DNA of 25,692 nucleotides from a virus. Where the stretch lies: IMG/VR virus record IMGVR_UViG_3300047673_000220, positions 1 through 25,692 of that record, one strand, 5' to 3'. Position 1 is the stretch's first letter. Every line of letters begins with the position of its first letter. A program made the position numbers and the translations under genes. Positions 3,791 to 9,002 of this stretch are shown here, one piece after another. The notes beneath the pieces were generated by a model. The model made no database searches, was not told the origin of the DNA, and saw nothing but the letters and a program-made list of their open reading frames with translations.

Positions 3791-4597
3791 GTGCTGACCC
3801 AAGCGCAACTCAAAGCCCGCGAAAACAGATTGACCGCTTCCGTTGCGCCGGTGGTCATGGGTGACGATCAATCCAAGCTGACCGAACGCTGGAAGGTCGC
3901 CATCGGCGCCATGCCCGAACCGGACTTGTCCGATGTGTGGGCGGTGCAGTGGGGATCACACGGCGAAACGTTCACCCTCGACTGGCATGAACGCAAAACC
4001 GGCCAGCCGCTGACCGAGCGCGGCACGTTCTGCCCGCATCCGACGCTGCCCTATATCGGTTGCACGCTCGACGCCTACCGCGCCTTCGACGATACCGTGC
4101 TCGACTGCAAAGTTAGTTCCAGCTTCAACCCGCTCGACGACATCATCGAATACTACACGCCGCAGATCATCGTGCAGATGCGCTGCCGGCAAGCGGCGCG
4201 TGGCGCGTTACTGGTCGTCCACGGCACCGCCGCCCCGCGCGAACTGGAAATCAAGGCGGACCCGGAATACGAAAAGGAACTGTGGGAGCGCATGGCCGCG
4301 TTCTGGCTGTGCGTTGAAACGTTGACCCCGCCGATGGCACTCCCCAAGGCCATCCCGCCGTCGCAGTGGCGCAAGATCGTCCTCGACCCCGACAATGAGG
4401 GCGTGTGGCCGAACTGGGGGCAGGACATGGCGGCGTGCTTGCGGGTGTGGAAGTTCACCAAGGCACACGCCGAAATGTATGCCGAAGCCAACAAGGAACT
4501 GCGCGACATCATCCCCGACGATGTCGGGCTGATCGAGTTTGAAAATATGCGTGTCATCCGCAACCGCGCTGGCAGCATCACCGTGAAGCGAGGCTAA
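3791..4597 (+). CDS. YqaJ/lambda-exonuclease-type recombination nuclease
   Basis: The product is 268 residues and starts at a GTG with GGGAG 6 nt upstream. N-terminal 'ARENRLTASVAPVVMG' matches the 'iTAS....vlG' signature of YqaJ-type viral recombinases. Then come 'WGSHGET' (54-60, the metal-site Glu), 'GCTLDAYR' (90-97; D94), 'VLDCKVSS' (103-110; D105-x-K107) and 'YYTPQIIVQM' (121-130; the conserved Gln). This is the full G...E...D...DxK...Q pattern of the lambda-exonuclease fold. It would resect 5' strands at DNA ends to make 3' single strands for the RecT protein encoded 3 nt downstream. It is the first gene of the rightward early operon. The protein ends with a charged tail that is not part of the nuclease core. 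Confidence 0.85.
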   Translation: MLTQAQLKARENRLTASVAPVVMGDDQSKLTERWKVAIGAMPEPDLSDVWAVQWGSHGETFTLDWHERKTGQPLTERGTFCPHPTLPYIGCTLDAYRAFDDTVLDCKVSSSFNPLDDIIEYYTPQIIVQMRCRQAARGALLVVHGTAAPRELEIKADPEYEKELWERMAAFWLCVETLTPPMALPKAIPPSQWRKIVLDPDNEGVWPNWGQDMAACLRVWKFTKAHAEMYAEANKELRDIIPDDVGLIEFENMRVIRNRAGSITVKRG

Positions 4598-4600
4598 CCC

Positions 4601-5437
4601 ATGTCCCTCCCCGCGCTTGTCCCGCAGTCGCTGCATGAAGCCATGGAACTGGCCGACCAGCTTGCCAGTAGCCGGCTGATCCCGAAGGATTTTAAGGGGT
4701 CGCCGCCCGACATCCTCAGTGCCATTTCGCTGGCGCAGCGCTGGCAAATGGACATCTGGGCGGTGATGGAGCATGTGTCGATTATTCAGGGCAAGCGCTT
4801 CATCGACGGACAGATGGCGGGCGCGCTTATCAATGCGCTGGCCAACGTGCAGCGGCCAATCGTTCACACCTACAGGGGCGAAGGCGACGACCGCACCGTC
4901 ACGGCTTCCGCGACATTCAACGGGGAGACTAAGCCGCGCGAAATCGAGGTACGGCTGGGTGACGCCCGCACGCCCAACAGCGCTTGGAAAAAACAGCCCG
5001 ACCAGCAGCTTGCCTATACCGCCAACCGGGTCTGGGGCCGCCGCAACTGCCCGCAATTGTTTGTGGGCATCCATTTCAAGGGCGAGCACGTCATCGAACT
5101 GGACGCCACCGAAGTCCCCACCACCGAACTGCCGCAACTGGCGCAGCCGATTGCACCGGAAGCCGACCCCGACACCGGCGAAATCGGGCCGCGCAATCTG
5201 GCCATCGGCGATCAAGAGGAATGGCTGGCGTGGGGTCAGCGTTTCATGGCCGCCATCGGCGCGGCGGAAACTGAGGAGGACATCAAGCTGTGGCGCGAAC
5301 ACAACGCGGCCGAGCTTGAACTGATGGCGACCGACGAGCCGAAGCTTTTTGAAAAGATGATGCTCTACGTCCACAAGCGCGCCGACAAGTTGAAGCCAAA
5401 GAAGGAGGCAAAGCCCAAGGAGGAGGTGCCGCCGTGA
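4601..5437 (+). CDS. recT: RecT-family single-strand annealing protein
   Basis: The product is 278 residues. The N-terminal half has the RecT layout: 'LHEAMELADQLASSRLIPKD' leading into 'GSPPDILSAISLAQRWQMD', then 'IQGKRFIDGQMAGALINA', a beta-rich 'TVTASATFNGETKPREIEVR' part, and 'AYTANRVWGRRNCPQLFVGI' (the conserved 'W.r...p....gv' region). The C-terminal 100 residues are charged and end in a lysine-rich tail. It would anneal the single strands made by the neighbouring exonuclease, for phage recombination or for circularising and maturing DNA. The spacing of 3 nt to the exonuclease and the 4-nt GTGA overlap with the next gene mark it as a coupled operon member. The exonuclease/RecT pairing supports both calls. 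Confidence 0.85.
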   Translation: MSLPALVPQSLHEAMELADQLASSRLIPKDFKGSPPDILSAISLAQRWQMDIWAVMEHVSIIQGKRFIDGQMAGALINALANVQRPIVHTYRGEGDDRTVTASATFNGETKPREIEVRLGDARTPNSAWKKQPDQQLAYTANRVWGRRNCPQLFVGIHFKGEHVIELDATEVPTTELPQLAQPIAPEADPDTGEIGPRNLAIGDQEEWLAWGQRFMAAIGAAETEEDIKLWREHNAAELELMATDEPKLFEKMMLYVHKRADKLKPKKEAKPKEEVPP

Positions 5438-6870: not shown

Positions 6871-6912
6871 GGCTTTTAACATTTTGTGAAATCGCGTAAA
6901 GGAGGTGCGTCG

Positions 6913-7245
6913 ATGACGGGGCTAACTCTATCGCCCGAACAGACTGCCAAGGAATTGACCATCAGCACCAAGACGCTGATGCGGCACGTTCGGGACGGTG
7001 AAATTTCCTACATCGAAGTCGGGCGTGGTCGCAAACGGCGTGCAATCCGCTTTGCGGCATCCGACATCACCGCGTTTATTGATAATCACCGAAGGACCAA
7101 ACCATGTCTGTCCAAACAAGAGGGAAAGGCGGGACGTATCACTACGCATTCCGCCTTAAGGGTTTACGATTTCATGGATCGACTGAAACGACCGACCGCG
7201 CGCAAGCCAAAAAGTTTGAGAAGGCCGCGCGGGACCAAGCGCTAA
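6913..7245 (+). CDS. Excisionase-like HTH_17 protein
   Basis: The ATG at 6913 was chosen because AAAGGAGGTG lies a few bases upstream, the best ribosome-binding site in the early region; the frame also has a GTG at 6886. Residues 1-60 ('LSPEQTAKELTISTKTLMRH', 'VRDGEISYIEVGRGRKRRAI', 'RFAASDITAFI') are a standard HTH_17/MerR-like excisionase domain. The natural end of that domain is near 7095, yet the frame continues for about 50 arginine/lysine-rich residues, 142 nt of it in another frame of the integrase gene. Position directly before a tyrosine integrase supports a recombination directionality factor. The long basic tail may be real or merely an open frame. Confidence 0.72.
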   Translation: MTGLTLSPEQTAKELTISTKTLMRHVRDGEISYIEVGRGRKRRAIRFAASDITAFIDNHRRTKPCLSKQEGKAGRITTHSALRVYDFMDRLKRPTARKPKSLRRPRGTKR

Positions 7246-8252
7246 AGGACATCCTCACGGCGAAGGAACAGAACAGCCGGCCGTTGACGTTGACGGCGGC
7301 CTTTGACCGTTTCTGGGAGGAAGTCGGCCAGCACTACGGCGGCACTTGGGGCAAGACGACATTCACCGCCTTGGCTTGGCTGGTGGATGAGAGAAAAAGC
7401 GGCCTTGTGCCGACGACGCTCATCGGCAGACTGACGCCGGCAATGGTGACAACGGCCGTTGCCAGACGCCGGGGCGAAGGGGTTGCCAACTCCACCGTGA
7501 ACAAGACCGTGACCTTTTTGCTCAAGCAAATCTGGTTGCGCTCGCGCGATCTGTGGGGCCAAACGGTTGAGCCGATGGAGTGGCGCAAACTGAGGCTGAA
7601 GGGGACACCGGAGCGCATTACCTCGCTCAAGTCGCATGAGGAGCCGCGACTGATGGCGGCGATGCGGGCTGATTACCTGCCGGTCATTCAGTTTGCGATC
7701 AAGTCGGGCTTTCGCAAAGCTGAAATCGTCAACCTCAAAAAGAAAGACATCGACTGGGGCGAGCGCACCATCACCGTGCTGGGCAAGGGCGACAAGCTGG
7801 CGACGATCCCGCTATCGACCGAGTTGCGGCAAATCCTTTGGCCGCTGATGAGCAACCCGACCGAGTACGTCTTTACGTTTGTGACCAAGCGCACCCGCAA
7901 GAACCCGAAAACCGGCCGCGCCTATGTCCGTGGTCAGGTGGTGCCGATTACTTATTCGGGGCTGGGCAGCGCGTGGACGCGGTACGCAAAGCGGGCCGGG
8001 CTAGAGGACTTCCACCTGCACGATTGTCGCCACACCGCTGCGACGCGGCTGGCCAAGGTTGCCAACATCAAGGTGGTGCAGAAGCTGATGCGTCACTCTG
8101 ACATTCAGACAACCGCCAAGTATATGGCGGTGTACGATGAGGACTTGCGGGCGGCGATGGAAGCGGAAACGGGAAGCCGACAGCAAAGCCGACAACAGGC
8201 CGACCAAGAAGCGGTGCAAGTTGTTGACGTGGCTGGAAAAGTTGCGTCGTAA
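7104..8252 (+). CDS. int: Tyrosine recombinase (phage integrase)
   Basis: The product is 382 residues. The N-terminal 'GTYHYAFRLKGLRFHGSTET' is the beta-strand arm-binding domain, followed by a helical core-binding domain (about 60-160). The catalytic residues are all present: R204 ('KSGFRKAEIVNL'), K228 ('GKGDK'), H306-x-x-R309 ('LHDCRH'), H331 ('MRHSDIQTT') and nucleophile Y340 ('AKYMAVY'). AAGGA lies 7 nt before the ATG. The last 25 residues are glutamine-rich because the DNA there carries CCGACA-type direct repeats that look like arm sites. The gene stops 7 nt before a tRNA-Pro half-gene, which marks the attachment core. It would integrate and, with an excisionase, excise the phage. Confidence 0.93.
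   Translation: MSVQTRGKGGTYHYAFRLKGLRFHGSTETTDRAQAKKFEKAARDQALKDILTAKEQNSRPLTLTAAFDRFWEEVGQHYGGTWGKTTFTALAWLVDERKSGLVPTTLIGRLTPAMVTTAVARRRGEGVANSTVNKTVTFLLKQIWLRSRDLWGQTVEPMEWRKLRLKGTPERITSLKSHEEPRLMAAMRADYLPVIQFAIKSGFRKAEIVNLKKKDIDWGERTITVLGKGDKLATIPLSTELRQILWPLMSNPTEYVFTFVTKRTRKNPKTGRAYVRGQVVPITYSGLGSAWTRYAKRAGLEDFHLHDCRHTAATRLAKVANIKVVQKLMRHSDIQTTAKYMAVYDEDLRAAMEAETGSRQQSRQQADQEAVQVVDVAGKVAS
8177..8209 (+). repeat. CCGAC direct-repeat array inside the 3' end of int
   Basis: Three CCGAC-containing units start at 8177 (CCGACAGCAAA), 8189 (CCGACAACAGG) and 8200 (CCGACCAAGAA), with periods of 12 and 11 bp. The same 11-mer CCGACAGCAAA recurs exactly twice downstream at 8409 and 8420. Placement on both sides of the attachment core fits arm-type integrase sites. 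Confidence 0.5.
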
Positions 8253-8259
8253 GGAACAC

Positions 8260-8298
8260 TCCCAAACCAGACGCGCTACCAGACTGCGCTATGCCCCG
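8260..8298 (-). other. attP: attP core: 5' half of tRNA-Pro(TGG)
   Basis: Read on the minus strand from 8298, this matches positions 1-38 of a tRNA-Pro gene. The acceptor strand is CGGGGCA (8298-8292), then TA. The D-stem is GCGC, the D-loop AGTCTGGTA, and the second D-stem strand GCGC. Then come G26, anticodon stem TCTGG, and loop TTTGGGA with anticodon TGG (8264-8262). After the loop the sequence (GTGTT...) no longer pairs with the anticodon stem, and no T-arm follows. A tRNA cut precisely after its anticodon loop, 7 nt from an integrase gene, is the hallmark of an attachment core at the anticodon-loop subsite. The host attB should be the full tRNA-Pro gene. The phage would restore its 5' half on integration. 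Confidence 0.82.
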
Positions 8299-8318
8299 AA
8301 GCTAAAAAAGATGTTTGT

Positions 8319-8347
8319 TTTCTAATGGTTTGCGGCGGTTCTTACAA
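8319..8347 (-). promoter_or_regulatory. Promoter candidate reading into the tRNA-Pro half
   Basis: On the minus strand, TTGTAA (8347-8342) and TAGAAA (8324-8319) are separated by exactly 17 nt, each matching 4 of 6 bases of the -35 and -10 consensus. The tRNA sequence begins 20 nt after the -10 box, after an AT-rich stretch. Because attP supplies the tRNA 5' end, the phage must also supply its promoter once integrated, and this candidate fits that need. Confidence 0.45.
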
Positions 8348-8357
8348 GAGCCGCCGC
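8332..8357. repeat. 12-bp inverted repeat between int and the orphan gene
   Basis: GCGGCGGTTCTT (8332-8343) pairs with AAGAGCCGCCGC (8346-8357) except for one T-G wobble, with a 2-nt centre. No T-run follows on either strand, so it is at best a weak bidirectional terminator between the convergent int and 8457-9002 genes. It overlaps the -35 box of the tRNA promoter candidate. Confidence 0.4.
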
Positions 8358-8378
8358 AAGTCGTTTGGAGAACGAAAG

Positions 8379-8430
8379 GGACACAAAAGGACCCGTTTGG
8401 ACCCTAAACCGACAGCAAACCGACAGCAAA
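8379..8430 (+). repeat. Tandem arm-site-like repeats right of attP core
   Basis: Three consecutive 10-mers GGACACAAAA (8379), GGACCCGTTT (8389) and GGACCCTAAA (8399) are followed without gap by two identical 11-mers CCGACAGCAAA (8409, 8420). Helical-turn spacing and the recurrence of the second unit inside int suggest integrase or accessory-protein arm sites completing attP. Confidence 0.55.
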
Positions 8431-8456
8431 TCTGTGAGGAAAACCGGCTAAGTGAT

Positions 8457-9002
8457 TCAGCGCGAACGCAGGTATTGCATCATGTGGTCAAAGGAATTCA
8501 TCTGTTCCGGCGTGTAGGCGCGCTGATTGAATGCCGCCGGCCACTGCTGGAAAGCGTAGCCCCGGAAATACCCCGGCACCCCAGACATCGTCCGCCAAGC
8601 CTCATAGGGCCGTTGCTCGCCCTGATTGGCGACGGCGTGCTGGTACTGGCTTTTCAGAATGTCCTCTTGCCACGGCTGGATCGAGCCGGTGAAGGATTGG
8701 TAGGCCTGTTTGATGGTCGGGTCGATGTTGACCAGATGGTGCGACACAACATCACCGAGCACGTCAAGCGGCTTGGAATCTGGCCGGTAGTTTTCGACGC
8801 CAAATCTATTTGGGGAGAATTCCGCCGGCCGTGGTTGCTGTGGCGTCCCCGTTTCGCCCGGTGGCCACGACTCCATGTAGCCCTGCCCGCCGCCGGGGTT
8901 GTCCTTATAGGCGATGTCGTAGTTGAGCAGCGCCGGGTATTGCTGGCGCGCTTGGTCAAGCAGCGTCGGCGGGGCGTCGAGGAGGTCCGACATTCCGGCC
9001 AT
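8457..9002 (-). CDS. Phage protein of unknown function
   Basis: The product is 181 residues, or 178 if it starts at the ATG at 8993; neither start has a clear ribosome-binding site. No signal peptide or membrane span is visible. Regions that look conserved are 'GGGQGYMESWPPGETG' (about 37-52), 'DVLGDVVSHHLVNIDP' (about 80-95) and the end 'YTPEQMNSFDHMMQYLRSR'. The tone is that of a small virion or structural accessory protein: many aromatic residues and glutamines. I do not recognise a named family. It lies between attP and a divergent intergenic region, separated from the late operon by a rightward gene, so it is probably transcribed on its own. Confidence 0.65.
   Translation of the reverse strand: MAGMSDLLDAPPTLLDQARQQYPALLNYDIAYKDNPGGGQGYMESWPPGETGTPQQPRPAEFSPNRFGVENYRPDSKPLDVLGDVVSHHLVNIDPTIKQAYQSFTGSIQPWQEDILKSQYQHAVANQGEQRPYEAWRTMSGVPGYFRGYAFQQWPAAFNQRAYTPEQMNSFDHMMQYLRSR

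Follow-up and report, generated by a model that had tools for sequence, protein, structure and literature searches.

A temperate phage attachment site that appears to replace the 5' half and the promoter of a host tRNA-Pro gene

A 39-nt block next to the integrase gene of a viral sequence most probably forms the attP core of a temperate phage of Alphaproteobacteria that replaces the 5' half of a host tRNA gene. The sequence, IMG/VR virus record IMGVR_UViG_3300047673_000220, was analyzed over its whole 25.7 kb (25,692 nt; hereafter the window), which may be less than the whole phage genome. We propose that the integrase recombines the core, at positions 8260-8298, with the host tRNA-Pro(TGG) gene at its anticodon stem-loop. 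As the block corresponds to tRNA positions 1-39 and lies across the anticodon loop from the integrase gene (int), integration would leave the host promoter and the host 5' half beside int as a non-functional remnant. At the far end of the prophage the phage 5' half, with phage DNA upstream, would be joined to the host 3' half, so that the rebuilt tRNA would be transcribed from phage DNA; in lysogens of related phages this DNA carries a promoter-like site resembling the native one. We assign this explanation as a whole a probability of about 0.92. The features discussed below are as follows.

6886..7245, + strand: small helix-turn-helix protein overlapping the int start (PF12728 HTH_17, E=1.1e-8)
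7104..8252, + strand: tyrosine integrase gene (int), 382 aa (PF00589, E=1.6e-28)
8174..8197, + strand: two arm-type repeats (AAGCCGACAGCA, AAGCCGACAACA) of family D1, within the 3' end of int
8260..8298, - strand: attP identity block, tRNA-Pro(TGG) positions 1-39
8260..8266, - strand: anticodon loop TTTGGGA, at the end of the identity block; likely crossover region
8319..8348, - strand: weak candidate tRNA promoter (CTTGTAA at -50, 16 nt, TTAGAAA at -27)
8330..8359, no strand assigned: inverted repeat of 14 nt, which overlaps the candidate -35 box
8406..8428, + strand: two arm-type repeats (AAACCGACAGCA) of family D1, beyond the core on the side opposite int

The integrase belongs to the tyrosine recombinases by its PF00589 match and by alignment, with the catalytic R, K, H-x-x-R, H and Y present as R204, K228, H306, R309, H331 and Y340, all invariant across 12 aligned relatives. 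The helix-turn-helix protein upstream is, by its position, a possible excisionase. Further upstream, at 3791-5437, the window encodes a RecE-like exonuclease and RecT-like annealing protein pair.

The complete tRNA closest to the block, and our reference for it, is a tRNA-Pro(TGG) of viral contig L298; its positions 1-39 match window positions 8298-8260 at 39/39 (E=6.5e-18). The rest of that tRNA had no meaningful match anywhere in the window, a T-arm pattern gave 0 matches in the 25.7 kb, and neither ARAGORN nor Rfam detected a tRNA there; the window therefore contains the 5' half alone. The attP thus holds the tRNA from position 1 to the crossover and lacks the 3' part, as in the 5'-fragment class of islands in the Islander database (see below). 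ARAGORN called no tRNA at attP or at the int-side junction, and recognized a tRNA-Pro(tgg) when the window's 5' half was joined to the L298 3' half. In L298 itself (positions 1-1732) the tRNA-Pro(TGG) adjoins an opposite-strand 452 aa ORF that reads like an integrase, apparently another element, which occupies this tRNA in the classical 3' orientation.

An earlier note, made from the letters of the window, had described attP as the 5' half of tRNA-Pro(TGG), cut exactly at the anticodon loop and lying 7 nt from the integrase stop codon. The half tRNA and the spacing are as described, with the int stop ending at 8252 and 7 nt separating it from the block. The exact cut also holds in the window, where identity stops at the last anticodon-loop base (the next base is g in the phage and c in the tRNA), but it is no strict rule among relatives: in five of their lysogens identity continues for 0 to 3 bases beyond the loop at one end and, at the other, for 2 to 18 bases ahead of the tRNA. 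Two more contigs of the window's phage carry the 39 nt unchanged within an uninterrupted attP, and therefore represent the joined, phage form of the site. The identical 39 nt were also found in five further records, of phage with an only 53% identical integrase. The note had also proposed a search for host genes sharing the block. The search retrieved related tRNAs, the best with one mismatch to a 44-nt tRNA stretch, and no exact match to that stretch among 385 Alphaproteobacteria and 199 genomes of one order; the identical 5' half is that of L298.

Paired 12-nt repeats of family D1 lie on both sides of the core and resemble the arm-type sites of an integrase (the repeat common to both arms has a shuffle p=0.03). 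Analogous repeats appear in many relatives, some 55-80 nt ahead of the int stop codon and some 80-110 nt away from the start of the tRNA. Four lysogens were tested for int-arm repeats at the complete tRNA: in three, such repeats reappear upstream of it (p 0.000-0.007) but not in the host-side DNA, and the fourth gave no signal. This identifies the stretch upstream of the complete tRNA as the second arm of attP. Shuffles and host-side arms served as controls here; the arms of other phages were unusable for this purpose because members share an AGTCCCG motif. This type of motif is common to the arms of nine otherwise different phages, which suggests a shared arm-site specificity. The window also has a palindrome at 8320-8370, predicted to form a hairpin of -30.5 kcal/mol on the + strand (z=-6.1), which could be an operator or a terminator. 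A strong hairpin at 8330-8359 is absent in nearly all relatives checked, and we rejected it as a family trait; it is specific to the window.

The consequences of such an attP can be followed in lysogens of relatives, from which the junctions are known; no lysogen of the window's exact phage was found. In Xanthobacter autotrophicus DSM 432 a 5' half adjoins int at C1:536082, and the complete tRNA-Pro(TGG) lies at C1:472040-472116, 64 kb from it. The layout is the same in a second Xanthobacter genome (complete tRNA 60 kb off) and in Devosia BIN32 (tRNA-Pro GGG, 62 kb off). In all three the integrase gene lies between a 5' fragment and the complete tRNA, the fragment being upstream and both pointing the same way, again as in the Islander class, and in X. 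autotrophicus and Devosia ARAGORN calls the complete copies and not the halves. The prophage side of the complete tRNA encodes proteins of phage type, a DNA polymerase in Devosia and a tail fibre in M. gnaphalii, and in X. autotrophicus it has PHROGs matches of unknown function.

Comparison with uninfected congeners fixed the orientation. Upstream of tRNA-Pro, 1.4 kb of DNA in five Xanthobacter congeners aligns with the sequence preceding the int-side half (77-89% identity) and not with that preceding the lysogen's complete tRNA, whereas the downstream DNA matches that of the complete tRNA; one Devosia congener agrees with this pattern. The host promoter and 5' half have therefore been displaced, and the phage supplies new ones. 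This displacement, also a property of the Islander class, was seen at empty sites of relatives only (the six congeners above). In Methylobacterium no link could be made between the upstream flank and congeners, and for the second Xanthobacter genome the search gave no syntenic empty site. The junctions and uninfected sites that the earlier note had suggested looking for are thus present in relatives, and we infer that the window's phage integrates as they do. The tRNA-Pro gene is probably essential, and in Xanthobacter and Methylobacterium each matching genome showed one complete tRNA-Pro(TGG); given this apparent single copy, the cell likely depends on the rebuilt gene.

The earlier note had further held that the phage supplies the leader and promoter of the tRNA. 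A generic sigma-70 scan of 8150-8500 returned no promoter, and was replaced by a two-block model (CTTGC, 16 nt, TA-containing block) trained on 69 native tRNA-Pro upstream regions. With this model the phage-supplied upstream DNA of the five lysogens scored 12.1-19.9, within the native range of 7.5-20.0 (shuffle p 0.000 to 0.011), and promoter-like sites stood at a native-like distance from the tRNA in 5/5. These results support a phage-supplied promoter, predicted from sequence, in five lysogens of relatives (p<=0.011). Free-phage attP sites scored lower (VSN-002, 8.5, p=0.05; L037, 8.3, p=0.05; RHph_I3_18, 2.9, p=0.12), and the window's own candidate is weak (score 3.6, shuffle p=0.17), so that the claim stands for the relatives and is not borne out to the same degree in the window; the positions of the window's two boxes, -50 and -27, are close to those in Xanthobacter. 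Among loci with the window's arrangement, 18/29 scored at p<=0.05, in a set that includes lysogens whose scored DNA is host DNA. The level at which the rebuilt tRNA would be transcribed is likewise a prediction. Native genes and phage copies alike also have a motif containing GTTC (TTTGTTC, CGTTCTC) that lies beyond the promoter, some 60-80 nt ahead of tRNA-Pro. The displaced host promoter, which would point into the 3' end of int, could be a putative source of antisense RNA.

The order of int, a few nucleotides and a reverse-complement tRNA 5' half up to the anticodon loop recurs in RHph_I3_18 (tRNA-Pro GGG) and VSN-002 (tRNA-Pro TGG), in Xanthobacter, Methylobacterium, Shinella, Devosia and Microvirga genomes, and in many viral contigs. 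In five further records int is followed by an apparent tRNA-Val(TAC) 5' half, and the 5' mode is therefore not limited to tRNA-Pro. No tRNA half was found within 500 nt after int in the Bradyrhizobium phages ppBeUSDA76-1 and ppBdUSDA122-1. Of 97 integrases, 55 could be classified by arrangement. The window's own arrangement, with the 5' half lying past the crossover, was found in 30/55, a proportion that is no unbiased frequency because the query alignment through which the sample was drawn consisted mostly of such members. The others had int followed by the 3' half (18/55), the 3' half between int and the crossover (5/55), or a promoter and complete tRNA downstream of int (2/55). This fourth arrangement is seen in L230 and L234, where a promoter-like stretch and a complete tRNA-Pro come after int on its own strand. 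The integrase tree requires at least 10 mode changes (shuffled mean 21.4), and the integrases of L234 and L226 are 77.6% identical, yet their modes differ. The description of this orientation as the less common one therefore applies in general, with 5' tDNA fragments in 159/3919 islands in Islander (PMC4383910), but not to the relatives sampled here, in which it was the most frequent.

The anticodon stem-loop resembles an integrase core site, with a 7-bp overlap between inverted arms (PMC8371274), and by this likeness it is plausible that it can be used from either side. We lean, at little better than even odds, towards a wider reading for this clade of alphaproteobacterial phage integrases: that the promoter and 5' half of a seemingly single-copy tRNA gene are commonly replaced, that flips to and from the classical mode are many because the near-palindromic anticodon stem-loop is usable from either side, and that every phage adopting the 5' mode is under selection to retain a native-like tRNA promoter.

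Several other explanations of the block were weighed. The half tRNA might be a relic of a former integration or tRNA capture, in a phage that integrates elsewhere or not at all, as the failure to find a lysogen of the exact phage and the weak promoter candidate of the window (p=0.17) would allow. However, the block is intact at 39/39, is identical in phage with a 53% identical integrase and sits between paired arm repeats, and relatives have integrated at exactly the tRNA-Pro site; we regard a relic as very unlikely. Classical integration, in which the phage restores the 3' half and the host promoter is kept, is the usual mode (3760/3919 islands; PMC4383910) and is employed by some relatives, e.g. 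L029 and phiLM21. Against this, the window has no 3' half, and relatives that share its attP layout show the opposite orientation at their empty sites. For the layout seen in the window the classical mode is thus refuted, barring a 3' half elsewhere in the phage genome, and the chance that it applies is close to nil.

That the target of the integrase is a tRNA gene would also suit tRNA-dependent lysogeny, where the host tRNA is broken and the phage supplies a whole one. But that system uses a core of about 10 bp that rebuilds nothing (PMC10865867), in contrast to the 39-nt block, which rebuilds the full tRNA, and no tRNA is encoded in the window, itself perhaps part of a genome; such a mode is extremely improbable here. 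A different doubt concerns transcription: the rebuilt tRNA could be made solely by read-through from prophage genes, with the promoter-like sites of the lysogens being incidental. The weakness of the window's site fits this view, which we consider unlikely in light of the native-like sites, at native-like distances, in 5/5 lysogens (p 0.000-0.011).

The 5'-half integration mode that we favor is already documented. Zhao and Williams (2002, J Bacteriol 184:859, cited in PMC6563490) reportedly described an element in reversed orientation that carries the 5' part of its target tRNA gene. The 5'-fragment islands of Islander (PMC4383910) likewise contain the 5' part of the target tRNA and displace that of the host, as the window's phage would; what differs here is that the 5' mode is frequent among related phage integrases and that promoter replacement was tested against empty sites. 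Archaeal pTN3-type integrases also use the tRNA 5' half and separate the rebuilt tRNA from its own promoter (PMC5495485, PMC8371274). In pTN3, however, attP lies inside int, which is split on integration, whereas the window's attP lies 7 nt outside an intact int; as int is also intact in lysogens, we rejected a suicidal integrase of this type.

Among phages, Sinorhizobium phage phiLM21 (tRNA-Pro GGG; PMC12429752) has a related integrase (35-37% identity) and a tRNA-Pro target like the window, but in its record the half carried is the 3' one, on the same side of the anticodon loop as int, a classical block. Closer in layout are Rhizobium phage RHph_I3_18 (37%) and Sphingopyxis phage VSN-002 (31.5%), with related integrases followed by a reverse-complement tRNA-Pro 5' half that is missing among the record features listed; RHph_I3_18 carries the GGG isoacceptor, and the arm repeats of both differ from those of the window. 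The mycobacteriophages with tRNA-dependent lysogeny (PMC10865867) share a tyrosine integrase and an attB in a tRNA gene, but there a phage tRNA gene replaces the broken host tRNA, whereas here the host gene would be rebuilt. We rejected membership in that class, defined by a short non-rebuilding core together with a phage-borne tRNA gene of matching isotype, as the 39-nt block rebuilds the tRNA.

To the documented mode these results add a clade in which it is common, repeated switching between modes, promoter replacement compared against empty sites, and lysogen promoters that resemble native ones. A natural set of related integrases with different tRNA halves allows a direct test of the rule that elements restore the 3' half. 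Prophage finders that expect 3' fragments alone would misplace the ends of insertions in the 5' mode. Phages carrying stand-in promoters for a probably essential host tRNA gene would provide a testable link between lysogeny and translation.
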